Of a stretch of DNA of 32,479 bases, positions 1-17,606 are shown one piece after another. The notes under the pieces were generated by a model, which was not told the origin of the DNA, ran no database searches, and saw nothing but the letters and a program-made list of their open reading frames with translations. Each line of letters starts with the position of its first letter. Position 1 is the first letter of the stretch. Made by a program: the position numbers and the translations under genes. The stretch spans positions 1 through 32,479 of the forward strand of contig CALITC010000026.1 of the NCBI GenBank assembly GCA_938041505.1, read 5' to 3'. This stretch comes from an uncultured Patescibacteria group bacterium. Its GTDB lineage: Bacteria > Patescibacteriota > JACMRA01.

Positions 1-3000
1 GAAGCATATGTGAATTTCTATACATTTATTTCTTATGATGTGAAAGTAAAAGACAATGCAGTTGGATATGGTTCACGAGAATATATAACGAATTACGCAT
101 CCTCTCGCCAATACGATACCGACAGTGCTGCAGTAAGTTGGTCTGATGAAACAAGTGGGTCTATCGATCCAGAAAATGTCTCTTTCTCGTTGGAACCTCA
201 ACACTATGACAGGCTTAAAATAGCAAGATCAGGGATATCTTTAGCTAAGTATACTAACCCAGCTGGTATTAAGGTTGTAATTGCAGGTGAGGTAACTGAA
301 TTTTATCTCGAACCACAGATACTCGGTAGATGGAGCGGGACACAAACAGCGACTCTAAGTGATAACTTACCAGCACAAACAGACTATATCGGAGGTTCTG
401 AGATGTTCAGTATTGATGGTGGGAATACCTGGGTAGACCTTGCAACTTTCAATGATAATTTTGCCAATGGTGTGCCTGGTTATGATATAGAAATTACCGA
501 CCCAACCTCAACCCACGGCCCAGATGCTGATCCTTTGAGGTGGACATTCGGCTCTCTGGATTATGATAGTGTTAATGATGTGGCAGATCAACTACCGCTA
601 ATTAAGTATAGTGTGTTGATGGACCCGTCTGTTAGTAGCGGAAACTTTACAAATACTGCAGTACTTAGTTCGCCATTTATTGCAGCGCGAGGAGTTAGGG
701 TTTTAGACGAGCCTGTTGCTACGTCGACAGGGGTATCAGGAATCGTTGATATGCCATATGCCGGATACGATTATACACAGGTAGAGGTAACACTTTTTGA
801 AAAAGTTACTGGAATAGGCGGGTCTACTGACCTTGAATCGGTCTGCCGCACCTTAGATGAGAATACTTTGATTGGTTCTACAAATGCAGACGCGGCGGGT
901 AACTATAGTTTCTCCAATGTTGATTTTCCTGCACTTGTTGACGGGCAAGATTACTGTATTGTTTATTATTTACCTGAAACTAAAACTGCAGCTTATACAC
1001 TCAAAGTTGTCCCAGAATACGGGTTTGAAGTGCTTAAGCAAAATGCTCGTGAAGTGTACTCAACAAACGATGAGTTTACATTTGATCTTACTTATAAAAA
1101 TCTTGGAGAAGAAGCCTTTTCAGGTGGGGAGTTTATTGATATTCTTCCATTTGATGGTGATGCCGCTGTAGGAATTGGAGGCAAAAACTCTTCAAGAACA
1201 CCACCGACAAACTTCAATGGTTACTATTCTTTAACTGAGATCGATACCAATAACGGTGAAAATATATTTGTAACTGACGTCAACCCTGCTAATTTGAATT
1301 TAGATCCGTGTGCGAGTTCGAACGTTCCTGATGGGTATGTTCCTAGCGATCCGGCGGTTTCTGGTCAGTTTATCGACGAGTTATGCTACCAACCATATAT
1401 TAATAACGGAAATCTGTTACCAGATGGACAGCCCGAAGGAACGTTTAGTGCAAATTGGCAATTATGTGCCGGCGGCGCTACCAAAGATGTGGAAAACGAT
1501 TGTCCAATTGATCCTCTTGAAGTAACGGCTATTAAGTTTGACGCTCCAAATGTTTCTACTACAGGTGGTCAAGCAATTTCAATTACTTTAGATCCTGTAG
1601 GTAATATCGGTGGAGAACCGGTGTTTACTACAGATCCTGATGGTAAACAAATTGTAGATTATGATAACAGCCCTGATATCGGTGATATCTATACTAACTC
1701 ATTTGGTGGTCGTATTCCAGAGATTTCTTTAAATGTAATCTCCAACGATGTTTCTGTAACACCTGTCTGGGGAAGTGCAGGGGACCTCGTATGGTTTGAC
1801 TATAACAATGACGGCGTGGTGCAGCTGTCAGATGACCCAGTGGTTGGTGTGGAGTTAGAAATAGTAGACTCTAACGGAGATCCAGTTTGGATTGACCCAC
1901 TTACTGGTATAGTAATCAAAGATGAAGATAGAGCTGATTATGAAGCAAATACTGGTGTGACTTTAGAGCCATACACTACAACTACAAACGCAAATGGTGA
2001 GTATCTATTTAGTAATTTACCAGCGGGTGATTATACCGTGAATTTAGTAAGCCCTGAGCCAGGAATTCCAACCTTTGATCTGGATGACGGTCTGGGTGCA
2101 ACAGATAACTCTGCTTCCTTTAACATCGCTGAAGAGTTTGATGTGCAGGGTAATTTAACAAGTGTACAAGATAGGGACGATGTAGACTTTGGATATAGAC
2201 TACGAGAGTTTGATGTTGAGTTAAGTAAAGAAATTCTTACTGCTGGTCCGTATATATTAGGGCAAACTGTAGATTTCAGGATTACAGTGGAGAATCAAGG
2301 TCCTGATTACGCTCCAAATGTAGAAGTGACTGATACACCAGCGGGGCTTACGTTTGTAAATGCGAGCGAAAATGCATCCACTGGTACCTACGCTGATCCA
2401 GTGTGGACTATTGGAAGAATGGAGCCAGCTGCGCTTGAGACTCTAGAATTAACCTATACCATTACTGCAGCAGACTTAACTGATCCAATCTATAACTTTG
2501 CTGAAGTAAGCGACGACGGTGAAGTTGACGGTGAAGATATTGACTCTGAGCCGGGTGATAACATTTCAGGCGATGAAGCAGATCCTTCTGAGGCCGATAG
2601 TGATTTGGTTTCTGGCACAGATACACATGACGACGAAGATGGTGTTATTCTAGATGTGGTTGCTGATCCCGCAATAGATTTGATTAAGACTGCTGGAGAC
2701 GCGGCTGATGGAGAAATCTATGTTAACGATCCTGAAGGAATGGTTACCTTTACCTATGTAGTAGAGAACACAGGTGGTCCAGATCTAGCGAATATCGTAA
2801 TTACAGATGATGCAGGTACGCCACTTGATGCCACAGATGATGTGATTATAACCAGTGCAGAATGTACAGGTCTAGCTGGCCCTCTAGCAAATGGTGAGAC
2901 GGTTACTTGTACTGCCGACCTTGAAGTGCTAGCTCTGATCAGTCCTTACACAAATACTGCAAGTGTTACGGGAACGCCTGTTGATGTGAATGGCGATGCT

Positions 3001-5856
3001 ATTCCGGGCGCAACTAATCCGACTGACGACGACCCAGCCCAAGCTGTTACTCCACCTGCTATTGAGATAGTTAAGACAGCAGGAACAGCAGCTGACAACG
3101 AGCAGTATGCAATCAATGAGTTTGGAGATGTTGAATTCACTTATACCATTACTAATACCGGTGGAACTTTCCTTTCATTTATAGAATTTACCGATAACCT
3201 AGGTACTTCTGATAATGCTGACGATGTAACAATCACAAGAAACGAATGTGCAGCTCTAGCCTCAGCTCTTACACCTGGCGATAGTGTTCTATGTACGGTT
3301 GAACTTCCTGTTTCTGAATATGATTATACCAATGATGTCGCTGTAGCAGGTACACCTACAGACGAAAACGGAAATAATTTAGAAGACGAAAACGGCGATA
3401 ATTTATTTGAAGATGTGGAAGATTCAGATGATGCTGAAGTCGATGTTCCAAATATTGATATAATCAAAGTGGTTAAAGACGAAGAAGACGGTAGTTTGTT
3501 TGTAAATCAACCGGCTGGTAATGTAACTTTTGAATATCAGGTAACTAATACTGGAGGAACACACCTTATTAATGCGGTTATCGTAGATGACTTCGGTACA
3601 CCAACTGATACTGCTGACGATGTAACTATTACCAGTACAGAATGTCCAGCACTTGCAGGACCAATTGCCCCAGGAGGTGTCATAAATTGTGAGTCTGATT
3701 TTGATATCAATTCTACCAACAGCCCATACACCAACAACGCAACAGTTGAGGGTACACCTTCTAACTCGGCTGGAACACCATATACTGGTTTAGATAATCC
3801 AACCGATAACGATGACGCAAGTGTAGTCGTACCTCCTAGTCTAGAAGTAGTGAAGACTGCCGGTACTGCTGCCAATGATGTTGGCTACGCGATTAATGAG
3901 ACTGGAGATGTAGAATTCACATACGTACTTACCAATACAGGAGGAACTTACCTTACTGACGTTGAGCTTGTAGATGATTCGGGAACTCCTGGAGACACTT
4001 CTGATGATGTTGTGATTACCGATGCAATTTGTACTGATTTAGCTGGTCCAATAGCCCCAGGTAGTGACGTAACCTGTACTCGTACTCTTCCAGTTGATAC
4101 AGTTAGCTATACCAATAATGTCGCTGCTTCTGGAACAGCAACTGATGAAAACGGTGATGAATATGAGGATGGTAATGGAGATCCACTATTTGAAGATCCA
4201 ACTGACGCTGATGACGCAGAAGTTTTAATCCCAGGGATTTCGTTAGTTAAAAGAGTGCAAGGCGAAGATGATGGTAGCTTATATGTAAACGATCCTGCTG
4301 GCCCTGTAACTTTCGAATTTTTGATTACCAACACAGGTGGAACATACTTAAGTGATATTGTAGTCACTGATGATGCTGGTACTCCTGGCGATCTTACAGA
4401 TGATGTAACGGTTACAAGTACAGAATGTTTGTTGCTCGCTAACCCACTAGCTCCAGGAGATGATGTTACCTGTGAATTAACTCTTGATGTTATTGGAATT
4501 GATAGCCCATATACCAACAATGCAGTGGTTACAGGAACTCCATCTGATGCAGCGGGAAATCCTTATCCAGATGTTGACGCTCCTACTGACACCGATGATG
4601 CAGATGTGATAGTGCCTCCAAGTATAGAAATTGTTAAACTGGCAGCAAATGCCCTCGATGGTGACACTCTATTTGTTAACGAATCAGGTGACGTTGAGTT
4701 TACCTACGATGTGACCAATACAGGTGGTGTTAACTTAATCGACTTGGTCATCGTCGATGATGCAGGTACTCCAACCGACACGGCAGATGATGTAACAATT
4801 ACTAGTGCGGAATGTGCTGATCTAGCTGGTCCGGTTGTCCCAGGCGATACAGTAAACTGTACTCAGATGATTGCTGTAACTAACCCTAATTATACCAATA
4901 ACGCAGATGTTACTGGTAGCCCAGTAGATGAAAATGGAGATGAATACCAAGATACCAACGGAGACTCATTGTTTGAAGACCCAACTGACACAGATGATGC
5001 GCAGATTATTTATCCGGATATTGATATAGTCAAAACTGCTGGAAATGCTACCGATGGCGAAGTCTTTGCAATTGAAGAAATCGGCACAGTGACGTTTACC
5101 TTTGTAGTTACAAACACTGGCGGAACCCATCTTACAGATATTGTCATTATCGATGATAATGGTACTAAAGGAGACAATGGAGATGATATAACTCTTACAG
5201 ATCTTGAGTGCCCAGGCTTGGCAGGCCCACTTGCGCCATTAGATACAGTAACGTGTACTCTTGATTTGGAAGTTGACACGATTAATTATACCAACAGTGC
5301 CAGTACTGCAGGCGCGCCTTCAGATTCAACAGGCTCATTGCTCACAAATCCTGATGGTGAACTACTATCTCCGCCTACAGACAATGATGAAGCCGAAGTC
5401 TTTATTTCTGAAGTAGCTCTAAGTATTGTAGATCCGTTTGAGTGTAATACTGGCTCTGGTTCAATCTTTGGTAATGTAGAATACTCAGGTGACTTCAGTA
5501 ACGTAACTGTTGAAGTTCAGTTAAGCGGGGCAGATGGTACCGTGTATTTGCTCAATCCACCACTTAATAGCGATGGTTCGTATTCGGTAGAATTTAGCAA
5601 CACGGGTGCCAATCCAATCCCAGAAGGTGATTATGATATTACCGCTGTTGCAACTGATATATTTGGAAACACTGCGATCTTCGATTATCAAGCATCAGTA
5701 TTCTACGATTGCACCGATGCTTTAGGAGATATGTTGAATATGATTAGAACTGGTGGTCAATTTGTGGATGATAATGGTTATATCCTTGCGTACGCCATCT
5801 TTGGATTGATCTCGATTATTGGTTACTATCTCAAAGCCTTAGAAAGTAGAGCGTAA
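1..5856 (+). CDS. Giant surface protein with SdrD-B-like and DUF11-type repeats (5' end cut by window edge)
   Basis: The frame is open from base 1, so the N-terminus lies outside the window; the GTG at 10 is not a convincing start. About 1951 residues are visible. In order: an unassigned N-terminal region; a first SdrD-B/carboxypeptidase-regulatory-like beta sandwich (about residues 240-335); a DUF11-like region; a second SdrD-B-like domain (about 595-730) with an EF-hand-like loop DYNNDGVVQLSDD; a DUF11 domain (about 740-840); an acidic linker; seven tandem 129-132-residue repeats (about 891-1803); an Ig-like domain; and a C-terminal membrane helix followed by a short charged tail. No LPXTG motif is seen. 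These modules in other bacteria form extended, calcium-stiffened surface stalks, so an adhesin or structural surface protein is inferred. A terminator follows directly. Ligand and exact role are unknown. Confidence 0.85.
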   Translation, partial: EAYVNFYTFISYDVKVKDNAVGYGSREYITNYASSRQYDTDSAAVSWSDETSGSIDPENVSFSLEPQHYDRLKIARSGISLAKYTNPAGIKVVIAGEVTEFYLEPQILGRWSGTQTATLSDNLPAQTDYIGGSEMFSIDGGNTWVDLATFNDNFANGVPGYDIEITDPTSTHGPDADPLRWTFGSLDYDSVNDVADQLPLIKYSVLMDPSVSSGNFTNTAVLSSPFIAARGVRVLDEPVATSTGVSGIVDMPYAGYDYTQVEVTLFEKVTGIGGSTDLESVCRTLDENTLIGSTNADAAGNYSFSNVDFPALVDGQDYCIVYYLPETKTAAYTLKVVPEYGFEVLKQNAREVYSTNDEFTFDLTYKNLGEEAFSGGEFIDILPFDGDAAVGIGGKNSSRTPPTNFNGYYSLTEIDTNNGENIFVTDVNPANLNLDPCASSNVPDGYVPSDPAVSGQFIDELCYQPYINNGNLLPDGQPEGTFSANWQLCAGGATKDVENDCPIDPLEVTAIKFDAPNVSTTGGQAISITLDPVGNIGGEPVFTTDPDGKQIVDYDNSPDIGDIYTNSFGGRIPEISLNVISNDVSVTPVWGSAGDLVWFDYNNDGVVQLSDDPVVGVELEIVDSNGDPVWIDPLTGIVIKDEDRADYEANTGVTLEPYTTTTNANGEYLFSNLPAGDYTVNLVSPEPGIPTFDLDDGLGATDNSASFNIAEEFDVQGNLTSVQDRDDVDFGYRLREFDVELSKEILTAGPYILGQTVDFRITVENQGPDYAPNVEVTDTPAGLTFVNASENASTGTYADPVWTIGRMEPAALETLELTYTITAADLTDPIYNFAEVSDDGEVDGEDIDSEPGDNISGDEADPSEADSDLVSGTDTHDDEDGVILDVVADPAIDLIKTAGDAADGEIYVNDPEGMVTFTYVVENTGGPDLANIVITDDAGTPLDATDDVIITSAECTGLAGPLANGETVTCTADLEVLALISPYTNTASVTGTPVDVNGDAIPGATNPTDDDPAQAVTPPAIEIVKTAGTAADNEQYAINEFGDVEFTYTITNTGGTFLSFIEFTDNLGTSDNADDVTITRNECAALASALTPGDSVLCTVELPVSEYDYTNDVAVAGTPTDENGNNLEDENGDNLFEDVEDSDDAEVDVPNIDIIKVVKDEEDGSLFVNQPAGNVTFEYQVTNTGGTHLINAVIVDDFGTPTDTADDVTITSTECPALAGPIAPGGVINCESDFDINSTNSPYTNNATVEGTPSNSAGTPYTGLDNPTDNDDASVVVPPSLEVVKTAGTAANDVGYAINETGDVEFTYVLTNTGGTYLTDVELVDDSGTPGDTSDDVVITDAICTDLAGPIAPGSDVTCTRTLPVDTVSYTNNVAASGTATDENGDEYEDGNGDPLFEDPTDADDAEVLIPGISLVKRVQGEDDGSLYVNDPAGPVTFEFLITNTGGTYLSDIVVTDDAGTPGDLTDDVTVTSTECLLLANPLAPGDDVTCELTLDVIGIDSPYTNNAVVTGTPSDAAGNPYPDVDAPTDTDDADVIVPPSIEIVKLAANALDGDTLFVNESGDVEFTYDVTNTGGVNLIDLVIVDDAGTPTDTADDVTITSAECADLAGPVVPGDTVNCTQMIAVTNPNYTNNADVTGSPVDENGDEYQDTNGDSLFEDPTDTDDAQIIYPDIDIVKTAGNATDGEVFAIEEIGTVTFTFVVTNTGGTHLTDIVIIDDNGTKGDNGDDITLTDLECPGLAGPLAPLDTVTCTLDLEVDTINYTNSASTAGAPSDSTGSLLTNPDGELLSPPTDNDEAEVFISEVALSIVDPFECNTGSGSIFGNVEYSGDFSNVTVEVQLSGADGTVYLLNPPLNSDGSYSVEFSNTGANPIPEGDYDITAVATDIFGNTAIFDYQASVFYDCTDALGDMLNMIRTGGQFVDDNGYILAYAIFGLISIIGYYLKALESRA
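2671..5409 (+). repeat. Seven tandem DUF11-type (DUF7507-like) units arranged A-B-A-B-A-B-B'
   Basis: Units begin at about 2671, 3058, 3451, 3838, 4234, 4621 and 5017, with lengths 387, 393, 387, 396, 387, 396 and about 393 nt. Odd units 1, 3 and 5 (type A) carry SPYTN and end in a Pro-rich junction; even units 2, 4 and 6 (type B) carry a DENG(D/N) plus NGDxLFED acidic segment. Unit 7 is B-like but has lost the acidic loops. Units two apart start 780-783 nt from each other, so the true period is a dimer of about 261 residues. Every unit has a Cys-X14-Cys pair around the segment LAGPxxPG. Confidence 0.85.
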
Positions 5857-5872
5857 GAAACAAAACAATAAA

Positions 5873-5903
5873 AGCACCTTCATTTTGAGGGTGCTGTCTT
5901 TTT
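5873..5903 (+). terminator. Rho-independent terminator after the giant surface gene
   Basis: AGCACC (5873-5878) pairs with GGTGCT (5890-5895), extendable by two weaker pairs, and is followed by a T-rich tract (5899-5903). It starts 17 bases after the stop codon. Confidence 0.8.
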
Positions 5904-5940
5904 CGGTGGTTCAAAGTTAGAAGTGCCTATTTTGGTTTTC

Positions 5941-5969
5941 TTGATAAAAATTTAAAAATAAACTAGTGT
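5941..5969 (+). promoter_or_regulatory. Weak candidate promoter of the first GH18 gene
   Basis: TTGATA (5941-5946), a 17-bp spacer, then TAGTGT (5964-5969). The -10 is poor (3 of 6), but the second GH18 gene has the same TAGTGT at the same spacing from its -35. Transcription would start at about 5976, right before the GTG at 5977, implying a leaderless message. Confidence 0.35.
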
Positions 5970-5976
5970 GTTTTAT

Positions 5977-7188
5977 GTGAACCTTAGATCTTTCCATAAA
6001 CCTATAACGGTTTCTTTAATCGTGCTCTGCATAATGTGCATTATCTTTGTTACTGCTGCAATATTTGATAATGCATCTGCAAATCAACCATTTGGTTTTA
6101 TTCTAAAAAGGCCTAGTATTGAAAAGGAAGATTTACTCACGTACCGACCCGAACAGCCTCCTGAAGAAATAAGTCTAGACATTCCAGATGTAGATGCAAT
6201 TTTAGGTGTGTTACCTCTTATAGAAGAACCGGCACTAGTGGAGCAAGGCTCTCAGATCACTACGTCATATTGGGTGTATCCAGGTAATCCTGCATGCAGT
6301 ACATTTAACGAACTGAATTCCTTAGGAGAGGTTGACCAAGTAAAGCCAGAATTTGCAACCATTGATGAAAATGGTAATACTATAATTCTAACAGAAGATA
6401 AAGCCGGTTGCAACGCTTTATCGAGCACCAACTTAGATTTTTTTAAAGCGCATAGCCAAAGCCAATTTATTACAGTGAGCGGTAGTGGTGAAGGGTTTTC
6501 TCAGTTGATGAGCAATCAAGAAAAGCGTCAGAACTCTATCGATATCTTAACGTCTTTAGTTAACCAAACCGGCACCGATGGCATCGAAATTGACTTCGAA
6601 GGTTTTAGCTCTTGGACTACAGCTGAGTACCAAAGCTACCTTGATTACCTTGATGGTCTAGGTCAAAGTCTGAACGATGAAGGCAAGCAATTGATGATCG
6701 ATGCACCAGCAATTTACAACGAAGGAATTCAGAATGTTTTTGAGTTTAAGTATAGCGATTTTAATGATTTAGCTGTAGACTTTATAACAATTATGGCCTA
6801 CGACTATCAATTTGATTTTGGTGGCGGAGCTTCAGTGACTCAAGACCAATTTTTGATCGACAGTATTACTAGAGCAAAAGAAGAAATTGAAGATGATTCA
6901 AAAATAATCGTTGGCTTACCTACCTATGGATATTCTGCAACCGAAGGGTCATATAGTGACATAAAAATCCTTACAAAGGCTCAAGTTAAAGACATAGTAG
7001 GTGAAGAAAAAATACAGACCGCAACAAGAATTGAGGACTCTCAAGAGCTCATTGTTGAGCATGAAGGCAAAGTCTACGTCTTCCAAGATAGAGAAAGTAT
7101 AGAGCATAAGATTAATCTAGTAGAATCAGAAGATGTTACACAAATATCCATATGGCATCTCGGAGGTAATCCATTAGTAGAAAACTAA
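5977..7188 (+). CDS. Membrane-anchored GH18-family glycoside hydrolase, copy 1
   Basis: Family 18 hydrolases cleave beta-1,4 bonds of chitin- or peptidoglycan-like glycans. A hydrophobic N-terminal segment (about residues 8-30) serves as signal or anchor, followed by a short linker and the GH18 barrel. The active-site strand DGIEIDFE (residues 201-208) matches the family DGxDxDxE pattern, with Glu in place of the first internal Asp and the catalytic Glu kept; MAYDYQF and the C-terminal SIWHLGGN strand are also family-like. It resembles the spore-coat/YaaH-like branch more than true chitinases. Two Cys bracket the first part of the domain. The start is GTG; 5977 is preferred over an in-frame GTG at 5968 because the candidate -10 overlaps the latter. 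The next gene is a paralog. The substrate (own wall or host glycan) is unknown. Confidence 0.8.
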   Translation: MNLRSFHKPITVSLIVLCIMCIIFVTAAIFDNASANQPFGFILKRPSIEKEDLLTYRPEQPPEEISLDIPDVDAILGVLPLIEEPALVEQGSQITTSYWVYPGNPACSTFNELNSLGEVDQVKPEFATIDENGNTIILTEDKAGCNALSSTNLDFFKAHSQSQFITVSGSGEGFSQLMSNQEKRQNSIDILTSLVNQTGTDGIEIDFEGFSSWTTAEYQSYLDYLDGLGQSLNDEGKQLMIDAPAIYNEGIQNVFEFKYSDFNDLAVDFITIMAYDYQFDFGGGASVTQDQFLIDSITRAKEEIEDDSKIIVGLPTYGYSATEGSYSDIKILTKAQVKDIVGEEKIQTATRIEDSQELIVEHEGKVYVFQDRESIEHKINLVESEDVTQISIWHLGGNPLVEN

Positions 7189-7255: not shown

Positions 7256-8797
7256 ATGAAGGATACAGGTAAATTTTCTTCTCATTGGAGAGAAGTATTG
7301 ATAGTAGGGGCGGTGACGATTAGTGTGCTCTCAGTGAGTATGAGTAGTCTTGTATTCAGGCGTTCAGCTGGGCTGAATAAGCAGTATATAGACATTTCAA
7401 CAATAGATCCAGATTTTCAACAAGATGGAGATGGTTCTTTTCCGTCTATTACCGTTGGCAACAACTCCGCCAGAAATAAAACAACCCCTCCGTTTCAAAA
7501 CCCGACTTCAGAGGATTCTAAGCAAGAAGAATTGGAAAAAGACACCTTTCAACAACCAGAAAATCAATTAGACCAATCAGAGGATTCGGAAAAAGAAACA
7601 TCCACCGAATCATCTCCTGAGCCAGCGTCCGAAGAGGTTGTCACAGAAGCTAGCCCTATACAACAAGCGAATCAACAAAGATCAGAACCAGATCAGCCCG
7701 AAAACAGAGCCCAAGAAGATCCAAATGAAGAAGGGGTGCCAGAAGAGTTACCAATCGAAGTTGCCCCAGATCCTCAACCAGAAGTCGAGCCTGAGCCTAT
7801 ACCTGTGGTTACAACTCCAGTAACAGTTACTCCGATAATTGATGAGCCGATTGTAACAAATTCATCAAGCTCACTATCGTACTGGATCTATCCTGGTGAT
7901 CCTGCTTGTAACACTTTTGAAGAGTTGCAGCAATATGGAGAAGTAGAGCAAGTAAAGCCAGAATTTGCAACTGTCACAAATGAGGGAATAATCAAGACTT
8001 TAACAGTTGAAGAAGCTGGCTGCAATGCCATATCAAGTACGAATGTAGAATTCTATAAGTCTATATCTAACACCCAATTTATTACTATAAGTGCAAGTGG
8101 AGAAGGGTTTAAAGCCTTAATGAGGACTCAAGAGAGTAGGCAAGTAGGAATCGACACACTAGTAGCGTTAGTCCTCCAAACTGATATGACGGGAATTGAA
8201 TTAGATTTCGAAGGGTTCGGTGCTTGGAGTGAGGATGATTATAGTGGCTATCTTGATTTTCTTAATGTTCTTGGGAATATCTTACATGCTGAGGATAAAC
8301 AACTGATGATTGATGCGCCTGCCATATATAATAGTCGAATCCAAGATGCTTTTCAATTCAAGTACGAGGACTTAGAGGACTTGCCTGTGGATATTATCAC
8401 AGTCATGGCTTACGATTATCAATATGATTATGGGGGTGGGGCGCCAGTAACAGATGACACTTTTTTGGTTGAGTCCATTAACTACGCCAAAGAAGCTATA
8501 GAAGACGACAACAGACTGGTGATTGGAGTACCAAGCTATGGGTATGGTGCAACTAGAGGATCTTATGACGATATCAAGATCTACACCAAAGCTCAGTTAC
8601 GAAATATATTTGGCAATGACAGGCTCAATCAAGCTACGCGAATACCAAATTCACAAGAGTTAATTATCGAAGAAGGTGATCAAGTATATGTTTTTCAAGA
8701 TGAGATATCAATTAATCATAAAATTAGTCTGGTAGAAGCTCAAGGCATCTTCCAAATATCAATTTGGCATTTGGGAGGTAACCCATTAGTAAGATAA
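7256..8797 (+). CDS. Membrane-anchored GH18-family glycoside hydrolase with long Pro/Glu/Gln linker, copy 2
   Basis: This 513-residue paralog of the preceding gene has an N-terminal membrane anchor (about residues 13-33), a low-complexity linker rich in Pro, Glu, Gln and Ser (about 60-200), and a GH18 domain (about 205-513). The linker could span the cell wall and lift the enzyme outward. The active-site strand reads TGIELDFE (residues 312-319): the first Asp of the usual motif is Thr here, while the DxE pair with the catalytic Glu is intact. MAYDYQYDYGGGAP, GVPSYGYGATRGSYDDIK and SIWHLGGNPLV are nearly identical to copy 1, so this is a tandem duplication with a replaced or expanded linker. 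Activity is likely but could be altered by the Thr. Confidence 0.8.
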   Translation: MKDTGKFSSHWREVLIVGAVTISVLSVSMSSLVFRRSAGLNKQYIDISTIDPDFQQDGDGSFPSITVGNNSARNKTTPPFQNPTSEDSKQEELEKDTFQQPENQLDQSEDSEKETSTESSPEPASEEVVTEASPIQQANQQRSEPDQPENRAQEDPNEEGVPEELPIEVAPDPQPEVEPEPIPVVTTPVTVTPIIDEPIVTNSSSSLSYWIYPGDPACNTFEELQQYGEVEQVKPEFATVTNEGIIKTLTVEEAGCNAISSTNVEFYKSISNTQFITISASGEGFKALMRTQESRQVGIDTLVALVLQTDMTGIELDFEGFGAWSEDDYSGYLDFLNVLGNILHAEDKQLMIDAPAIYNSRIQDAFQFKYEDLEDLPVDIITVMAYDYQYDYGGGAPVTDDTFLVESINYAKEAIEDDNRLVIGVPSYGYGATRGSYDDIKIYTKAQLRNIFGNDRLNQATRIPNSQELIIEEGDQVYVFQDEISINHKISLVEAQGIFQISIWHLGGNPLVR

Positions 8798-9074: not shown

Positions 9075-9106
9075 CAAATTTTCAGAAAATGTGCTAGAAT
9101 TTGAAG

Positions 9107-9135
9107 ACCCTCAAAAATATGAGGGTCAATTTTTT
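9107..9135 (+). terminator. Rho-independent terminator after the 71-codon gene
   Basis: GACCCTC (9107-9113) pairs perfectly with GAGGGTC (9121-9127), followed by six T (9130-9135). It insulates the following regulated operon from upstream transcription. Confidence 0.9.
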
Positions 9136-9148
9136 GCTCTTAAGATAC

Positions 9149-9165
9149 ATACCCCCAGGGGGTAT
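9149..9165 (+). promoter_or_regulatory. CsoR/CstR-type operator palindrome
   Basis: ATACCCCC-A-GGGGGTAT is a perfect 17-bp palindrome whose last base touches the -35 box of the next promoter. G/C tracts flanked by ATA/TAT are the known operator form of the CsoR/RcnR/CstR (DUF156) repressors, which respond to Cu(I), Ni or persulfides. Binding here would be expected to block RNA polymerase. No such regulator gene is in the window, so it must act from elsewhere. Confidence 0.7.
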
Positions 9166-9194
9166 TTGACAATCAAATAAATTTTTTGTACAAT
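9166..9194 (+). promoter_or_regulatory. Consensus sigma-70 promoter of the thioredoxin-CcdA-DUF3179 operon
   Basis: TTGACA (9166-9171, 6 of 6), 17-bp spacer, TACAAT (9189-9194, 5 of 6). Transcription should begin near 9201, giving a leader of about 21 nt to the ATG at 9222. A TTG at 9186 overlaps the -10 and cannot be the start. Confidence 0.8.
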
Positions 9195-9221: not shown

Positions 9222-9710
9222 ATGAAAAAAACTATCTTCTTCGTCGTTTTATTTGCAATCGTTATCGGATCAGGGCTATTAATCTCTCGAAGCTCTAATA
9301 GTGACACAAATAATAGCAACTCAAGCTCGGTTGAAACAAATAGTGTAGAGACTGGCGCGGCATCAGTATCAACAACAGATAATCTGATAGCTTCAGAAGG
9401 TGATCAATACGTGGATTACTCAGCCAGCACTCTATCTTCCATAGACAAAGAAAAACGAATCTTATTTTTCAAAGCTGATTGGTGTCCAAGCTGTAACGCT
9501 TTAGATAGGGATATTGAAAGTAATCTTAGTAGTATTCCTGAGAACGTCGCCATCCTCAAGGCTGATTACGATAGCGAAACTGAACTTAAGAAAAAATACA
9601 AAGTAGCCTCTCAGCACACTCTAGTTGTCTTGGATGAGAATGAAGAAGAAGTTGAAAAATGGTCTGGAATTCTTACTCTTGACGATTTACTTACAGCAAC
9701 CAAAAGCTAA
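9222..9710 (+). CDS. Membrane-anchored thioredoxin-like protein (WCPSC)
   Basis: This extracytoplasmic thiol-disulfide protein of 162 residues has an N-terminal hydrophobic helix (about residues 4-22), a Ser/Asn/Thr-rich linker, and a thioredoxin fold (about 60-162) with active site WCPSC (Trp87, Cys88, Cys91) in the context FFKADWCPSC, then a DYD segment and a C-terminal WSG strand typical of thioredoxins. It has no lipobox Cys, so it is held by the helix. It is first in an operon with CcdA, which would supply electrons across the membrane. The ATG at 9222 is chosen because the only longer in-frame start falls in the promoter -10. Likely controlled by the CsoR-type operator upstream. The cis-Pro of most thioredoxins is not evident (SQHTLVV takes that place). 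Confidence 0.85.
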   Translation: MKKTIFFVVLFAIVIGSGLLISRSSNSDTNNSNSSSVETNSVETGAASVSTTDNLIASEGDQYVDYSASTLSSIDKEKRILFFKADWCPSCNALDRDIESNLSSIPENVAILKADYDSETELKKKYKVASQHTLVVLDENEEEVEKWSGILTLDDLLTATKS

Positions 9711-9719
9711 TTACCCCGC

Positions 9720-10451
9720 ATGACTTTATTTATAGCAGCACTACTGGCAGGTTTCCTAACGGTATTGTCCCCATGTGTTTTACCAGTCTTACCAATAATT
9801 CTTGGAGGTTCTGCCACTTCTAAGTCCAAAAAAGACCTATTAGTGATTGTTCTATCTTTAAGTGCATCTATATTTATTTTTACCTTCCTATTACGCACGT
9901 CTATTCAGTTTTTACCAATCCTGTCTGAGCTAGGTAATAGGTTCTGGGTAGTTCTCTCTGGGCTTATAATTAGCATATTCGGTGTGGTGACTATATTTCC
10001 AAAGCTATGGGATACGATTGACCAAAAACTTGGACTCAATAATCAAAGTCACGAACTATTAGAAAAGAGCAAAGAAAACCACAGTAAATGGCAAAAAGTC
10101 TTATTGGGTGCGTCTTTGGGTCCGGTATTTACGAGTTGCTCTCCAACATATTTTGTAATCTTAGGTTTGGTAACAAGTAGTAACTACACACAGGGAATCT
10201 CTCTATTATTGGTGTATTTACTAGGTCTCTCAATTTTCTTATACGTTATTGGACTCGTCGGGTTCAAAGCAACCAAGAAGTTTCGTTTGCTCGCTGACCC
10301 GAAAAGCAAAGTACGCAAAGCTCTCGGAGTGTTATTCTTATTGCTCGGTATCGGAATCATCTTAGGTTGGGATAAGGTGCTTGAAACCTGGCTTTTAGAT
10401 CTTGGGATCTACGACAATTTCTCTACCATCGAAACCAACCTTTTACCATAA
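9720..10451 (+). CDS. ccdA: CcdA/DsbD-family transmembrane thiol-electron carrier
   Basis: The 243-residue multi-pass membrane protein begins 9 bases after the thioredoxin-like gene. The family moves reducing equivalents from cytoplasmic thioredoxin to extracytoplasmic thiol proteins through two membrane Cys. Both signature sites are visible: LSPCVLPVLP (Cys19) in helix 1 and SLGPVFTSCSP (Cys140) in the first helix of the second half. About six hydrophobic helices can be counted, matching the short CcdA form. No cytochrome c maturation gene is nearby, so the partner is probably the adjacent thioredoxin-like protein and perhaps DUF3179. The symbol follows the family; it could equally be called a DsbD transmembrane domain protein. 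Confidence 0.88.
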   Translation: MTLFIAALLAGFLTVLSPCVLPVLPIILGGSATSKSKKDLLVIVLSLSASIFIFTFLLRTSIQFLPILSELGNRFWVVLSGLIISIFGVVTIFPKLWDTIDQKLGLNNQSHELLEKSKENHSKWQKVLLGASLGPVFTSCSPTYFVILGLVTSSNYTQGISLLLVYLLGLSIFLYVIGLVGFKATKKFRLLADPKSKVRKALGVLFLLLGIGIILGWDKVLETWLLDLGIYDNFSTIETNLLP

Positions 10452-10480: not shown

Positions 10481-11476
10481 ATGAAAAAATACCTTATATT
10501 GTTAACAGTTTTTACAACTCTAGTTGCTGGTTCAATCTTTGTAATTCGACAACTTCCCAGCGAAGAGTCAAGCAATGGACAGAGCACAATCACTCAAAAT
10601 TTAGAAGACGTTTTTAGTGGTGAGCCCGCACTCAAGGAACCTGGTGATATCAAAGCTTCAGATTTATCCCAAGGTTGTCCAAGGCGCGACTGCATACCAT
10701 CTCTCGATAATCCAAATTTTGAATCACTTGAGGACGCAGATGCCTGGCTAGAAGCTGATGACCTTGTATTTGGAATCGAAGTGAATGGAGAGTCTCGCGC
10801 GTATCCCCAAAGAATTCTCAACTGGCACGAAATTGTTAACGATACCATCCAAGGTGAAGATATCGCAGTAACCTTCTGTCCTCTTTGTGGTAGTGCTATT
10901 GCGTTTGAGCGCCAAGTAGATGGTCAAACCACCACTTTTGGTGTGTCTGGTAAGCTCTATAATTCCAATCTTGTGATGTATGATAGATTAGAAGAAAGCT
11001 ACTGGCAACAAGAGACAGGGGTGGCAATTATTGGTGACGCTGCTGTCCGCGAAGAAAAGCTAAAACCAGTTCCAATGGCCAGTGTTTTCTGGGAAGACTG
11101 GAAAGAATCTCACCCAGAAACCCAAGTGCTATCCCGAGAAACCGGTCATACTAGAGACTATGATAGATACCCTTATGGTAGCTACGAAGAAGACGGAGAT
11201 CTCTACTTTGGAATAGAAAATACAGACAACAGGTTACCGCTCAAGGCGCCAGGATTTGGTTTCAATATCGGAGAAAGCAACAAATTCTACCAAACTGAAG
11301 ATATTCCCAAGGATACTCAAATCGATGATGTGATTAATGGTGAGCAGGTAATTATACGAAATCAATCTGGTATAATCACCATGACCACTGCAGCAGGGGA
11401 AGAGTTGGTGCCAATCAGGACATTTTGGTTTGCTTTTGCAGCGTTCCATCCCGATGCTGAAATATATTCCAATTAA
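10481..11476 (+). CDS. DUF3179 domain-containing exported protein
   Basis: Residues 1-25 form a signal or anchor helix; the rest matches the DUF3179 family: GCPRRDC (Cys66, Cys71), RAYP, NWHEIVND, and TFCPLCGSAIAF (Cys133, Cys136), then GVSGKLYNSNLVMYDR and a C-terminal FWFAFAAFHP. The family's biochemistry is not established. Its invariant CPLC pair suggests metal or thiol chemistry outside the membrane. Here it is third in an apparent operon after a thioredoxin-like protein and CcdA, under a CsoR-like operator, which fits a copper- or sulfur-linked redox role (inference). The downstream neighbour on the opposite strand ends only 22 bases away, with no obvious terminator between. Confidence 0.85.
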   Translation: MKKYLILLTVFTTLVAGSIFVIRQLPSEESSNGQSTITQNLEDVFSGEPALKEPGDIKASDLSQGCPRRDCIPSLDNPNFESLEDADAWLEADDLVFGIEVNGESRAYPQRILNWHEIVNDTIQGEDIAVTFCPLCGSAIAFERQVDGQTTTFGVSGKLYNSNLVMYDRLEESYWQQETGVAIIGDAAVREEKLKPVPMASVFWEDWKESHPETQVLSRETGHTRDYDRYPYGSYEEDGDLYFGIENTDNRLPLKAPGFGFNIGESNKFYQTEDIPKDTQIDDVINGEQVIIRNQSGIITMTTAAGEELVPIRTFWFAFAAFHPDAEIYSN

Positions 11477-11498: not shown

Positions 11499-14400
11499 TT
11501 ACTTCCTCTCTCGAATCACTTTTTGAACTCCCCAAACCATAACTCCAATCACGACAGCAATCCCAACCAAGACTACATAACCACCCCCACCACTCCGCAC
11601 AGTAGTAATCAACGTAGGTGTTTCTTCTGGGGTATCCTCCTCTGGTTCTTCTACCTGTGTAATCTTCACCGTAGCCACGCCCTCCTTAGGTTCTTGGATC
11701 TCAGTGGACGTCATCAAAGCCCGGTTAGTCAGTGAAGTGAGGTCGGTATCCTTGAGCCTGGTTACAAACGAAACAGTTTGTTCTTCTCCGACACCAAGGG
11801 TTGGATAGTTCCAAGTCAGCTCTGTGGTAGTAGATTGAGCGTGTGCTGCTACTGATCCAAGTACATCACTTAGTAAAGAACTACTTGTTGAGACGACCCC
11901 ATCTCCTTGACTATCTTGTGTTTGAGCACTGGCTACATCCACCGTAGACGTAGTACAGTTGTCTGAACAAGACACAAACTCTAACTCTGGGTTAAGAACG
12001 TCAGTAATGACTACGTTAGTTAGTTCGGTGTTGCTCGTATTCTCAAACGTAATAGTGAAGGTAACTTCTTCTCCTGCTTCTATCTCTGGTTTTGATGGGA
12101 CATTCTCTATCTCAGAGTCGTACACAATGTTGAGTCCTGTAATACTTGTTTGTCCGTCTAATTCGTTGGTGGTTAAAAAGGCAGTGTTGCCAATGTTGGT
12201 GGTGTCTGTTCCAAGACCAGGATCAATCGTAACTTGGAAGGTCTGGGTAAGCGAGCCACCATTGATTGGTAAGACTCCAAGATTCCAGGTGAGCAGGCCT
12301 CCAGTATCTCCATTAGCATCGTTCGGATCTGTGTCTGAGGTGAAAGTACATTGGTTAGTACATGAGTTCTCTATGTAGACTAGATTAGGATCTAGAGTAT
12401 CAGTGAGGACAGCATCAGTTAATTCTACTTCTCCAGTATTCTCGTAACTCACAATGTAGGTAATCGTATCTCCTGGTTGGGCGCCATTTGGTTTATTGTG
12501 TTCTTTAGCAATCGTCACTCCTGGATGATCTATCTCTACTGAGGGAGCGGTGACTTCTCCGGTTACTTGCGCTGTGTTAATGAAGGCGGTGTTGCCTGCA
12601 GTCGTGGTTGCGCCATCAACATCAGTAGCTAGTGTAACTTCAAAAGAGACTGAGTACACGGTTGGATTCTGTGGATCTACATTCACTGGCAAGACTCCTG
12701 CGTTCCAGGTGAGTAAACCTCCCGTGTCTCCAGTAGCGTCTGGGGTGAAGGTGCACACTACTCCATTTGGATTACCAATTGGATCTGTGCCTGGTAAAGC
12801 AGCACTACAAGAGTTCTCTACATACTCAAACGCGGGGTCTAAGGTATCGGTAATGACCGTGTTGGTTAGTTCCACCAAGCCATCATTCTCGTAACTAATC
12901 GTGTACGTGATTACTTCTCCGCTCTGAACTCCTTCGCTCTGTTTATCATGACTCTTACCTATCTCTACACTCGGTACATCGGGAGTTGGGTGCTCAATGG
13001 TGACTGGGACATCACCAGTGCTACCGTTCACCTCACTCGTGTTGATGAAGCCTTCGTTGTTGATGGTGGTGACTGAGTCGTCGGTGTCTTGGTTAACTAT
13101 TACCTGGAAGGACTCTGTATAGACGGTATTCCCAACTGGAAGGGTACCCACGTTCCAAGTTAAGGTACCACTGGTAATATTCCCTGTACGTGGAATGAAG
13201 GTACAACTGTTGGTACATGAATTATCTACATAGGTGAAGTTGTCATCTAAGGCATCAATCACCACTGTGTTCGTGAGTTCTGTGTCTCCTGTGTTCTCGT
13301 AGGTGATGGTGTAGGTGATGATGTCTCCTGGTTGGGGGTTACTATTCACTTGATCATGTTCTTTGGTGATTCCAGTACCAGGATGATCAACGGGAATAGG
13401 GTCACTGGTAGAGTCTCCGTTGATTTCGGAAGTGTTTAAGTAGGCCGTGTTAGCTACACTGGTGGTAGTACTTTCTACGTCTTTGCTGAGAGTTACTTGG
13501 AAACTTACCGTGTAGGTGTCTGTGGAGATTGGGAGTGTGCCCAGGTTCCACTCTACAACACCTCCGGTGTCTCCATTAGTGTCATTCGGATCAGAGTCTG
13601 GAGTGAAAGTGCAGTCTACCTCATTTGGGGCTGCATTCTGAGTACAACTTCCATCTACGTATTCCAAGATAGGATCTAGGGTGTCTGTAAGTACGGAGTT
13701 CGATAATTCTACTGCTCCATTGTTCTCGTACTCTATGGTGTAGGTGATGACTTCACCAATCTGGACTCCTTCTCCTGTTTTATCATGGGTCTTTTCTAGT
13801 TCTAGGGATGGATCGCTTGGTGGTTGTTCGTTGTTGCTGAGTGCACCGCCAAATTGAGAAGTGTTAAAATATGTTCTGTCATCAATAATATTATTAAGTA
13901 CAGAGATACCAAAAGGAGATCCTCCACTATTCTGCACAAACTCCGTAGCTGTAAAAGTGTAAGCACGACCTACATACTCAGGATCAACAACAACACTCCA
14001 AGTCGCATCTCCGTTATTATCAGTGGTAAGGTCAAAGGCGGAGACAAACTCCTCTCCTTCTCTATCCGTTGTGGTATCAAAATCACTTGGATTAGCAAAT
14101 AACTCCAAACGATAGCTCTTATGAGCTTCACTATTAAATGTCCCAGCAACTGTCGTGCCTGTTGTTAAGCTAGTATCAATAACAGGATAGTTTTGAAGAT
14201 TATTTGACCCAGTGTCAACATCAAGGACATCCGTATTTGAGCTACCATTTATACCGCCACTACCATCTAAATTAATGCCTAAAGAAGTGTTATCTTTAGT
14301 TAAATTACCCAAAACTGTATTGTTAATAGTGTTATTTGAAGAGAGTGATAGACCATGATGCCCGTTATCATAAAAATAATTAGTATCTCCGTTCTCTAGA

Positions 14401-17400
14401 CCGCCGACCAGGTTTCCAGAGCCAGTGATTGCCATTCCTATTCTTCGATTTCCGAGTCCATCTGCAAAATTTGTATTTGTCCCAAAATAATTTCCTTTTA
14501 TAACGCTGTCAGACCCTCTCAATATCAATCCAGTACCAAAATCACCACCTGCAAATATATTACCCTCACCATTGTCGCTACCACCAACAATACTGTTATT
14601 TCCAACAATGCTGTTAGTTGCGCAATTGGTATCCAAACATAAACTATAGTTGGGTATTTTTATTGATTCATCAGCACTAAGACCGAAAATATTACCTTGC
14701 AAAACACTATTATCGCCTTCTAAATAAAAACCCTTACCGTTCCCACTTATAACATTATTAGTAAGAGTGTAACTATCGCCATATAGTTGAACTGTTTCTC
14801 TAGGTACAGAAGTTGAATTTGTATTGCGCAATACTGACATTCCTGTAGTATCTACTCCAATGAAGTTATTACTTATGGTGTTATTATTAGAATTGCTGGC
14901 AGAAGTTGGAACTCTTATAGCGCCAAGTAAATTATTACTGATAACATTCCTATCGTTTTCAGATCCCCCAATATTATTGTTACTTGAATCCTCAAGACGT
15001 ATCCCAAATCTATTGCCATTGCCCCCACCGCTTAGATCTAAGCCTATCCAATTACACTTAATAGTATTATTATCACCTTGCAACCTGTACGCAGCTTCTA
15101 GTCTATGGTCTTGGAAAGCAGAGTAATCTGGGTCAAGCTCTATACCGTTTCGAAAAAAGTGCACAGACAAACCAGCAAAAATATTATTTGATGACTCAAC
15201 CAAAAAAGCACCATTATGCAAATTAACTCCCAAAGTTGACCCGCCACCCCCTGCATGCAAAGAGATATTGGGAGAAAAATTCGCGGGACATATTGGGCTA
15301 GTAGAATCATCAATAGCATTGATTATATGAGAATCATACATAGTAATAGGAGAGTTTAGTCCGATGTCACCATTAACATCAAATGTAATTGTATCTACAC
15401 CAGGATTAGCACTTGCTTGGGCTACAGCCTCTCTAAAAGAACCAACCCCACTATTATTAAGGTTCTCCGCCTCAAAAACACTAGTTGGTTCGTAGTGACC
15501 AAATTCCGAAGTATTCATGTAATTCCTACCATTAATCTGCACAGGAGAATTACCGATGTATGTGCTCTCGTCGTAGAGTGTATACTCTGTTGCTGTAATT
15601 GTCAGCGGTCTATCTGCATAAGATAAAGGTATCTCAGTGTTCCAGCCCTTCCAGCCTCCGACATCTAATGTTACATCCATTGCTTTTATAAACTCTAAAC
15701 CTTCCCTATCTATAGTTGTGTCCAAAAGATTATTATTGGCGTAGAGCTCAACATGGAAAGTACGATGCGTAATCTCATCTCCAACTTCATAAGCTGTACC
15801 AGAATTCAGGGTCATTTCAATCTGCAAGGCATCAACTAACGTCTCAATATCGACGATTGTTGGTGAGTTTTGAAAACCATGATAATAAGTCGTTGTATTA
15901 GAACCGCTGGTGATTGTGCCGTCAGTGTAATTATCAGATATTCCAGGATCTGGATCTACCCCATCTGAATCTTCATCGATAAATTCGTCAATTCCTATGA
16001 GACCATTTGAGAAAATAGAGTTTTTTAATACTGCAATTCTTTCTCCAGGTCTTCCTAAACCATGAGTAATATTTGTTCGAACCCCACTTTCATTATTGTA
16101 TGCAATAACATTTGATTCGTTTATATTCAGCCCTCCTATCAACACATCTCTACTTGCCATGATCCCAGAATTCTTGTTACCTAACCCAGAGTCAAAATTT
16201 GCGTTGGTACCTATGAAGTTTCCTTGTATCTTAGAACCACTTGGAACGCCTGAATTTGTCATATCAGCTGTAATACCATGACTATCGTTACCAGCCACAA
16301 TGTTCCCTTCACCTGGGTTGGAACCTCCAAACAAAACACTGTTTACAATTTGCACTGCTGGAAAATCTTGATATTTCGTATTTGGAATAGCCGTAGTTGC
16401 CGTTGGATTAAGCCCAAAAATATTTCCTTGGACCATTACTTCGTAATCGTCGAAACCCCTCGCTCTAAAAGCGCACCCTTCATTTCCACTTACAACATTG
16501 CCCTCTCCAGGATTTGGACCTCCAAATTTATTGCTTGAACCTTGAATACCTATAGCACACCTCCTGGACTCCTGGTTACTTAAGCCTGCAAATGTTTGAG
16601 TTGCTGCATTTGGTTTGGCGAGTGTACCAGTAGAATCCACACCAAAATAGTTTCCATATATATTATTATTGTTACTATTAGTGGTACTCATAATAAGTGC
16701 AAGCTCATTGTACCCAAATAAATTTTTATCATTTGAGTTTGCACCTCCAATTAAGTTGTCGCTACTATGAATTAAGTGTATACCTGTTCCTTTGGGGGTA
16801 GTATTATCACTTATACTATTTTGGTTTAAATTGAGACCTACCCAATTACATTTAACAATATTATTATTTGATTCAATATTTCCAATAAAGTTGCCGAATA
16901 CTAGCGAGCCTTTATAGTTTGCATTACTACTAGCAACATTATCATTAGACGCCACAGCGATACCTGCCACCACGTTATTGCCATCTGTAAACCTTAAAGC
17001 ACCTCCAGGATTATTAAAATCGAACTCTATACCTCTAATGAAAATATCTGGGGTGTGATTTGACGGACAAACTGGATTATCTGTTGTATCTATACCATTA
17101 ATAATAATTGAATCTGTTATCTCAAGTTGTGGGTTTATGTTAATTTCTCCACTAAGCTGATCATCAAATACAATTGTATCCTGCCCAGGATTAGCATTTG
17201 CTAGATCAACCGCTTCACGAAGTGTACCTACACCTGTATTATCAAGACTTGTAACAGTATACACCGTCCCGGCTGCACTGGCCTCTTTGGGTAATTGAGT
17301 TTGTTGGTTATAGGCTAAGATTACTAATCCAAGTACTCCTAAACAAACTAAGAAATACCCACCTTGTAAAAAAGACTTGAAACTCACTATTTTTTTAAGC

Positions 17401-17402
17401 AT
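11499..17402 (-). CDS. Giant surface protein with two beta-helix halves and five DUF11 domains
   Basis: About 1967 residues. A signal peptide (hydrophobic about residues 15-30, then EASAAG) is followed by two parallel beta-helix regions (about 46-630 and 640-1190). Each opens with a CSLREA-like motif (TLREAVDLANANPGQDTI and FREAVAQASANPGVDTI) and carries many short NNTI/SNNN turns, as in pectate-lyase-like folds. Five DUF11 domains follow (from about 1199), and the end is a Gly tract, membrane helix and basic tail (VQKVIRERK). There is no LPXTG. The role is inferred to be surface attachment or glycan contact. The start ATG at 17402 is preferred to one at 17477 because a good promoter lies between them and the signal peptide then sits at the N-terminus. 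It is convergent with the DUF3179 gene. Confidence 0.85.
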   Translation of the reverse strand: MLKKIVSFKSFLQGGYFLVCLGVLGLVILAYNQQTQLPKEASAAGTVYTVTSLDNTGVGTLREAVDLANANPGQDTIVFDDQLSGEININPQLEITDSIIINGIDTTDNPVCPSNHTPDIFIRGIEFDFNNPGGALRFTDGNNVVAGIAVASNDNVASSNANYKGSLVFGNFIGNIESNNNIVKCNWVGLNLNQNSISDNTTPKGTGIHLIHSSDNLIGGANSNDKNLFGYNELALIMSTTNSNNNNIYGNYFGVDSTGTLAKPNAATQTFAGLSNQESRRCAIGIQGSSNKFGGPNPGEGNVVSGNEGCAFRARGFDDYEVMVQGNIFGLNPTATTAIPNTKYQDFPAVQIVNSVLFGGSNPGEGNIVAGNDSHGITADMTNSGVPSGSKIQGNFIGTNANFDSGLGNKNSGIMASRDVLIGGLNINESNVIAYNNESGVRTNITHGLGRPGERIAVLKNSIFSNGLIGIDEFIDEDSDGVDPDPGISDNYTDGTITSGSNTTTYYHGFQNSPTIVDIETLVDALQIEMTLNSGTAYEVGDEITHRTFHVELYANNNLLDTTIDREGLEFIKAMDVTLDVGGWKGWNTEIPLSYADRPLTITATEYTLYDESTYIGNSPVQINGRNYMNTSEFGHYEPTSVFEAENLNNSGVGSFREAVAQASANPGVDTITFDVNGDIGLNSPITMYDSHIINAIDDSTSPICPANFSPNISLHAGGGGSTLGVNLHNGAFLVESSNNIFAGLSVHFFRNGIELDPDYSAFQDHRLEAAYRLQGDNNTIKCNWIGLDLSGGGNGNRFGIRLEDSSNNNIGGSENDRNVISNNLLGAIRVPTSASNSNNNTISNNFIGVDTTGMSVLRNTNSTSVPRETVQLYGDSYTLTNNVISGNGKGFYLEGDNSVLQGNIFGLSADESIKIPNYSLCLDTNCATNSIVGNNSIVGGSDNGEGNIFAGGDFGTGLILRGSDSVIKGNYFGTNTNFADGLGNRRIGMAITGSGNLVGGLENGDTNYFYDNGHHGLSLSSNNTINNTVLGNLTKDNTSLGINLDGSGGINGSSNTDVLDVDTGSNNLQNYPVIDTSLTTGTTVAGTFNSEAHKSYRLELFANPSDFDTTTDREGEEFVSAFDLTTDNNGDATWSVVVDPEYVGRAYTFTATEFVQNSGGSPFGISVLNNIIDDRTYFNTSQFGGALSNNEQPPSDPSLELEKTHDKTGEGVQIGEVITYTIEYENNGAVELSNSVLTDTLDPILEYVDGSCTQNAAPNEVDCTFTPDSDPNDTNGDTGGVVEWNLGTLPISTDTYTVSFQVTLSKDVESTTTSVANTAYLNTSEINGDSTSDPIPVDHPGTGITKEHDQVNSNPQPGDIITYTITYENTGDTELTNTVVIDALDDNFTYVDNSCTNSCTFIPRTGNITSGTLTWNVGTLPVGNTVYTESFQVIVNQDTDDSVTTINNEGFINTSEVNGSTGDVPVTIEHPTPDVPSVEIGKSHDKQSEGVQSGEVITYTISYENDGLVELTNTVITDTLDPAFEYVENSCSAALPGTDPIGNPNGVVCTFTPDATGDTGGLLTWNAGVLPVNVDPQNPTVYSVSFEVTLATDVDGATTTAGNTAFINTAQVTGEVTAPSVEIDHPGVTIAKEHNKPNGAQPGDTITYIVSYENTGEVELTDAVLTDTLDPNLVYIENSCTNQCTFTSDTDPNDANGDTGGLLTWNLGVLPINGGSLTQTFQVTIDPGLGTDTTNIGNTAFLTTNELDGQTSITGLNIVYDSEIENVPSKPEIEAGEEVTFTITFENTSNTELTNVVITDVLNPELEFVSCSDNCTTSTVDVASAQTQDSQGDGVVSTSSSLLSDVLGSVAAHAQSTTTELTWNYPTLGVGEEQTVSFVTRLKDTDLTSLTNRALMTSTEIQEPKEGVATVKITQVEEPEEDTPEETPTLITTVRSGGGGYVVLVGIAVVIGVMVWGVQKVIRERK
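11700..13810 (-). repeat. Five DUF11 units in A-B-A-B order plus one divergent unit
   Basis: Reading on the minus strand, units begin near 13805, 13375, 12968, 12520 and 12135. Units 1 and 3 share K(T/S)HDKxxEGVQxGEVITYTI and have a long segment between their two Cys; units 2 and 4 share KEH(D/N), QPGDxITY and the compact SCTNxCTF. Unit 5 is divergent. Spacing is about 385-450 nt. Confidence 0.8.
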
Positions 17403-17428
17403 ATTTTTGTTTTTGATATACACTAGTA

Positions 17429-17457
17429 AGTATACACTAATTGTTATTAATGTGCAA
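17429..17457 (-). promoter_or_regulatory. Promoter of the beta-helix/DUF11 giant gene
   Basis: On the minus strand: TTGCAC (17452-17457), 17-bp spacer, TATACT (17429-17434). The start site would be near 17422 and the leader about 20 nt to the ATG at 17402. TAGTGTATA occurs twice here, 16 bp apart, once overlapping the -10. Confidence 0.7.
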
Positions 17458-17606
17458 AAATTAGAATTATCTTCCACTCATAAAATGAAAAATAAAACTT
17501 CATGTAGCTTTTCAAACTCTTATTATTTAATATGATAAACAAAGCTCGTAAATAAAAAACTTAAGGTTAATAAGTCCATATAAGGCATATATATGGGAAA
17601 AAATGC

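Follow-up and report, generated by a model that had tools for sequence, protein, structure and literature searches.

A predicted DUF156-type operator at a thioredoxin-CcdA-DUF3179 operon of a patescibacterial genome, and a thiol-redox gene set that may share its repressor

The window studied here, meaning the whole analysed stretch of 32,479 nucleotides, is contig 26 of a patescibacterial genome (G000; 1.12 Mb in 26 contigs, approximately 69% estimated completeness). It carries a compact operon of three genes, separated by gaps of 9 bp and 29 bp, whose products are assigned by Pfam to Thioredoxin, DsbD_2 (CcdA-like) and DUF3179 (Table 1), which confirms the identities given in a preliminary description of this DNA. 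The DUF3179 match reaches 296 bits at a cut-off of 27 (PF11376). Exported-looking repeat proteins of 1948 and 1992 aa are encoded on either side of the region (10-5856 and 11499-17477, minus), and a tandem pair of exported GH18-domain proteins is found at 5968-7188 and 7256-8797.

Table 1. Features of the operon region (positions in the window) and promoter dyads in the genome (C, contig; the window is C26).
Feature	Position	Strand	Description
Terminator-like hairpin, then T-run	9106..9127	+	Rho-independent-like; pattern scan
Predicted operator	9149..9165	.	perfect palindrome ATACCCCC-A-GGGGGTAT, DUF156 (CsoR/CstR) kind
Putative sigma-70-type promoter	9166..9194	+	TTGACA-17-TACAAT; 11/12 consensus positions; assigned by consensus match alone
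Thioredoxin, exported or membrane-anchored	9222..9710	+	WCPSC; Pfam PF00085, E 9e-11
CcdA/DsbD-type transmembrane thiol-electron carrier	9720..10451	+	Pfam PF13386 (DsbD_2), E 1.3e-7
DUF3179 protein, N-terminal membrane anchor	10481..11476	+	CPLC 133-136; Pfam PF11376, E 3e-88
Dyad, thioredoxin-CcdA-DUF3179 operon	C26:9149		touches -35
Dyad, cytoplasmic thioredoxin (WCGPC)	C4:56425		few bases upstream of -35; gene start 75 bp downstream
Dyad, NADP-specific glutamate dehydrogenase (GDH)	C2:42024		fills 17-nt spacer, TTGACA-17-TATACT
Dyad, VTT-domain membrane protein	C6:18594		fills 17-nt spacer, TTTACA-17-TATACT
Weaker sixth site, FAD disulfide oxidoreductase (MerA/lipoamide-dehydrogenase group)	C4:5596		abuts TTGACA

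The palindrome ATACCCCCAGGGGGTAT occupies exactly 9149-9165, with perfect arms of 8 bp around a centre of 1 nt, and it directly abuts the -35 element TTGACA (9166-9171), which is followed by a spacer of 17 and the -10 element TACAAT (9189-9194). The order in the window is TTAAGATAC, then ATACCCCCAGGGGGTAT, then TTGACA-17-TACAAT, and the coordinates of the perfect palindrome against a consensus promoter, as described before, are confirmed. Since a terminator-like hairpin (9106-9127) precedes the dyad and the ATG of the thioredoxin gene (9222) lies 3' of the promoter (9166-9194), the dyad is located near the beginning of a new unit. Operators of DUF156 regulators are described as pseudo-palindromes with a G/C run of at least four, usually bounded by TAC/GTA (PMC10318464), and a G/C-run pseudo-palindrome of this form, placed in a promoter, is what is seen at 9149-9165. 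With up to three mismatches allowed, the palindrome is found at one place in the window, compared with 0.02 expected from shuffled windows.

Alternatively, with no regulator involved, the palindrome might have arisen by chance or serve as a structural element such as a leader hairpin or a piece of the terminator region: the window contains two further perfect 8-bp inverted repeats with a loop of 0-3, both AT-rich, which makes three in all, and the terminator-like hairpin lies 22 bp upstream of the palindrome. However, the palindrome is located upstream of the -35 element and is not transcribed from its promoter; moreover, promoters of genes with related functions carry the dyad approximately 40 times as often as expected, and it accompanies DUF156 genes in other genomes. 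We consider this explanation highly improbable.

Further copies of the palindrome, for which a search had been suggested, do exist in the genome. Based on pattern searches, as are all genome-wide motif counts given here, ATACCC-N4-6-GGGTAT occurs five times and the reversed pattern not at all (0), while approximately 0.14 occurrences are expected from base composition and 0.10 from the reversed control (P ~6e-8). Four of the five dyads are located in promoters, those of the thioredoxin-CcdA-DUF3179 operon, a cytoplasmic thioredoxin, GDH and a VTT-domain protein, and a weaker sixth site precedes a disulfide oxidoreductase gene (Table 1). The fifth dyad (C3:47220, ATACCC-N6-GGGTAT) lies between gene ends with no sensible target and was taken as a chance occurrence; several matches with two mismatches are located inside genes and were likewise set aside.

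The presence of a DUF156 regulator, on which the operator reading depends, is established: the genome contains two DUF156 genes, C13:45860 and C22:24864. The product of C13:45860 (87 aa) matches Pfam PF02583 with an E-value of 6.5e-12 and 46 bits at a cut-off of 22.8. An alignment with reference sequences of CsoR, CstR, FrmR and RcnR places Cys-Gly-Cys at the copper-ligand positions of C13 and Ser-His-Ser at those of C22, a protein with no cysteine at all (L002/L075). The two cysteines of C13 are 29 residues apart at the positions of C31 and C60 of CstR, and Gly replaces the His of copper sensors; the ligand set of C13 is, as read from this alignment, the CstR arrangement. The C13 gene adjoins none of its predicted targets, and since no perfect dyad was found near either of the two DUF156 genes, linkage does not decide between C13 and C22.

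A survey of 128 distinct DUF156 proteins from the phylum related the ligand residues to the neighbouring genes. Proteins with C-x-C and no His (n = 17) have thioredoxin or TrxB downstream in 12 cases, distributed over 9 families, and CopA in 0/17, whereas those with C-H-C/H (n = 96) have CopA nearby in 76 cases and thioredoxin or thioredoxin reductase downstream in only 2; the Fisher p is ~1e-10 for each contrast, with counts that are not independent of descent. Among the 15 proteins lacking one or both cysteines, CopA is found in 0 and thioredoxin in 5 cases. Two operons illustrate the association: in G050 a dyad, a C-E-C DUF156 gene, Trx, TrxB and GDH form a single operon, uniting thioredoxin and GDH, which stand under separate dyads in the genome of the window, and in G017 a dyad is followed by a C-N-C DUF156 gene, Trx and a gene whose 408-aa product has a TGCPHC motif and no Pfam match. 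In a phylogenetic tree, 36 proteins including the C13 group are split from the CopA-linked body with support of 100/99, and C13 and its relatives from G001, G003 and G004 fall inside a thioredoxin-linked clade (94/96). C13 lies in the thioredoxin-linked part of a large clade with BsCsoR, SaCstR, FrmR and RcnR, in which the fork to S. aureus CstR lacks resolution, and C22 sits on a long branch within the CopA-linked clade; with only 87 aligned columns and long branches in places, the tree is uncertain in its details. In family f16 (L155, L156, L159, L178) the DUF156 gene has TrxB downstream, and GDH too in two cases; this family arises within the CopA clade, with Tyr for the copper His in 2/4 members, and it is possibly a second recruitment to thioredoxin genes.

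The dyad itself is shared across these groups. Strict CCCC-GGGG dyads lie in DUF156-bearing genomes in 21 of 24 cases (p 0.001), a dyad-like sequence was found by a loose pattern within 300 bp of 42/96 C-H-C/H genes, and the CsoR-CopA operons of the phylum carry an identical ATACCCC-GGGGTAT dyad. The operator sequence therefore identifies the family and not the ligand, copper versus thiol. At other thioredoxin-linked DUF156 genes, the dyad is often located between TTGACA and the start codon and is of several types. The sites upstream of the thioredoxin-linked DUF156 genes of L184, L207 and L157 are TACT-G(6/7)-AGTA-like (TACT-G7-AGTA in L184), unlike the TACCCC type, and we take them to resemble RcnR-type operators. 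The occurrence of DUF156 genes in the genome of the window and of the same dyad beside DUF156 genes across the phylum supports the assignment of 9149-9165 as a predicted DUF156-type operator, as first proposed.

Because the same dyad precedes CsoR-CopA operons, the site could be the operator of a copper-sensing CsoR, in which case the thioredoxin-CcdA-DUF3179 set would, under Cu(I) stress, repair or deliver thiols or copper sites outside the cytoplasm. The assembly of copper proteins often involves CcdA and TlpA-like proteins, and a CsoR gene could be missing from the incomplete genome. However, neither C13 nor C22 has Cys-His-Cys, and thioredoxin genes are seldom found next to genes for C-H-C/H proteins; the genes behind the other dyads encode thioredoxin, GDH, an oxidoreductase and a VTT protein, and copA is not among them. 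Moreover, the approximately 69% complete assembly contains no CPC-type copper ATPase, its sole match to a heavy-metal P-type ATPase model being below the cut-off and devoid of CPC. We regard the copper-sensing CsoR operator as an unlikely explanation. In the preliminary description Cu(I), Ni and persulfides had been left as equal candidates for the signal, which was too open: ligand pattern, the neighbours of C-x-C proteins and the missing CPC-type ATPase speak against copper, an unlikely signal judged from these features, and a thiol oxidant or persulfide appears likelier.

Genomes of the same family were inspected for conservation of the site. In G001, a perfect dyad abuts the TTGACA of the counterpart of the oxidoreductase gene at C4:5596, and a second dyad precedes a glutaredoxin gene. 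Relatives of the CcdA of the window were found only in G003 and G004 (40-41% identity), and both genomes have a DUF156 gene divergent from a fasciclin-CcdA/thioredoxin-like operon. The expected palindrome before orthologous operons was thus borne out in part: both relatives that keep CcdA have the divergent DUF156 gene, and in G003 ATACCCCTAGGGG abuts the TTGACA of the CcdA operon, but the site in G004 is degenerate. In G002, no DUF156 match was found and the thioredoxin gene has no dyad. Conservation of the dyad at the cytoplasmic thioredoxin was considered for the other same-family genomes and rejected, the dyad being absent or degenerate, and this indicates that the regulon is labile. Two side observations were made in these comparisons. 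In L121, a dyad is located between a second VTT-type membrane protein gene (756-1460) and a divergent disulfide oxidoreductase gene (1557-2936) and could serve both. The DUF156 orthologues L087:6087-6359 and L088:6404-6667, which have lost both cysteines of the sensor positions, share another Cys in a VCK motif and are still divergent from the CcdA operon.

In the DUF156 orthologues of C13 in G003 and G004, both cysteines are lost, and since G003 keeps the operator, the signal there cannot be sensed by that pair. This is in line with the idea that the cysteine-less C22 protein, alone or together with C13, binds the sites and that regulation responds, independently of cysteines, to another ligand, e.g., an aldehyde or a metal bound via other residues; the genome of the window does encode such a DUF156 protein, with Ser-His-Ser as its ligand set. 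However, the long branch of C22 in the CopA-linked clade sets it apart from C13, which clusters with thioredoxin-linked proteins and the G003 and G004 proteins adjoining the CcdA operon, and we consider binding by C22 quite unlikely. From residues and tree position, C13:45860 is the probable repressor acting on the 9149-9165 dyad.

DUF3179 has been published as a selenoprotein family with a UxxC/T motif (PMC9312934). The protein of the window contains the corresponding CxxC/UxxC motif as CPLC (133-136), whose two cysteines are kept by at least 90% of 45 relatives, and in three DUF3179 genes from Chloroflexi (L236:3280, L238:5229, L264:5229) an in-frame TGA stands precisely at the Cys133 position, ahead of PLCG, so that their products are apparently selenoproteins with UPLC. 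Thioredoxin-, TlpA- or CcdA-type genes were found by simple BLAST within 5 kb of approximately one third of 80 DUF3179 relatives. The closest relative found (47%) is encoded in L244 (Levyibacteriota), in an operon (4122-6538) of genes for an ArsR-type regulator, an exported thioredoxin, DUF3179, a Zn-finger-like and a glutaredoxin-like protein. However, neither a DUF156 gene nor a GC-rich dyad was found close to any of the 80 other DUF3179 loci of the genome collection; a dyad before DUF3179 operons in general was accordingly rejected (0/80), the wiring belongs to the lineage of the window, and how far the operator can inform on the role of DUF3179 in general had been overstated. A thiol-redox role of DUF3179 is supported apart from the operator, being better founded on the CxxC motif and on selenocysteine in some members, and is predicted from these features. 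The structure of the protein was predicted with a pLDDT of 90, and a Foldseek comparison of the model with the PDB gave no significant match. A second comparison with residues 102-204 returned mostly Rieske-fold domains with Z of 4-7, a level that perhaps reflects just a common arrangement; membership in the Rieske family finds no sequence support from Pfam or from a small hand-made Rieske profile and is not claimed.

As a whole, the interpretation given in the preliminary description is partly supported. We think it likely, on the genomic evidence, that a CstR-like cysteine-pair DUF156 repressor of a thiol-redox gene set, probably C13, uses the palindrome as its operator. In the mechanism that we propose, the tetrameric C13 repressor in its reduced form would occupy the dyad next to the -35 element and deny RNA polymerase access to the thioredoxin-CcdA-DUF3179 operon, and it would hold the genes for the cytoplasmic thioredoxin, NADP-GDH, which may supply NADPH or glutamate, the VTT protein and the disulfide oxidoreductase via their promoter dyads. 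S. aureus CstR works via an inter-subunit disulfide between C31 and C60' (PMC5480029). Oxidised or persulfide-bearing thiols would similarly cross-link the C13 cysteines between subunits, so that the DNA would be freed and the set switched on. In the exported branch, CcdA and the thioredoxin would relay electrons to thiols outside the cytoplasm, and DUF3179 may be a partner or substrate of this branch through its CPLC motif. Since thioredoxins of S. aureus can reduce protein persulfides (PMC6196236), induction would restore the reduced state.

The predicted regulator resembles CstR of S. aureus and E. faecalis in its DUF156 fold by Pfam, in a Cys pair 29 residues apart with no ligand His, and in a GC-centred dyad near the promoter. 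Known CstR targets are rhodaneses, sulfite exporters and a sulfide:quinone oxidoreductase beside the cstR gene (PMC10318464), and S. aureus CstR probably controls a single operon (PMC5480029), whereas the predicted set here comprises thioredoxin, thioredoxin reductase, CcdA, disulfide oxidoreductase, glutaredoxin and GDH, with targets that are unlinked to the regulator gene in the genome of the window. Control of sulfur-oxidising or sulfurtransferase genes, as expected of CstR, was not found for C13: the 5-6 kb stretches holding the genome's two rhodanese-domain genes contain no dyad, and there is no rhodanese among the predicted targets. With the Cu(I)-sensing CsoR, C13 shares the operator form, which is identical at C-H-C/H members of the phylum, but it differs by the missing ligand His and by the absence of CopA from the predicted regulon and the assembly. 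TTHA1953 of Thermus thermophilus is a CsoR-family regulator in which disulfide formation lowers DNA binding and whose regulon is scattered from its gene (PMC10318464). It is comparable as a thiol-responsive regulator with targets away from its gene, but its operator TACNNTACNNNNGTANNGTA has no G/C tract and it acts on sox genes, not thioredoxins. The L244 operon resembles that of the window in combining a thioredoxin-DUF3179 pair with a small repressor-type gene, but its regulator belongs to the ArsR family (PF01022), it has no CcdA gene, and it continues with a CPYC glutaredoxin-like gene.

DUF156 repressors and CstR are already known; a thioredoxin-linked C-x-C branch with such a regulon was not found in a literature search of partial coverage, which likewise returned no link of CsoR to thioredoxin in Patescibacteria and no operons of DUF156 and thioredoxin reductase genes. 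We tentatively suggest, as a possibility that may well prove wrong, that the C-x-C branch of this phylum is a dedicated thiol-redox repressor of the thioredoxin system, comprising Trx, TrxB, NADPH-linked GDH, a CcdA-linked exported thioredoxin and, here, DUF3179, and it may go back to repeated recruitment. Transcriptional control in such small genomes is largely uncharted, and little is known of how oxidant or sulfur stress is sensed there. The comparison offers a readable residue rule for the type of regulator, in which the His is lost, the Cys pair is kept and thioredoxin genes stand in place of CopA, as well as a set of operators that is open to in vitro work without growing the organism. 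Moreover, DUF3179, an uncharacterised family in which some members contain selenocysteine, is placed in a thiol-redox operon in the lineage of the window, and part of its other relatives stand beside CcdA- or thioredoxin-type genes. If the suggestion is true, a CsoR-fold protein would fill in reduced genomes the role of OxyR, Spx or RsrA.
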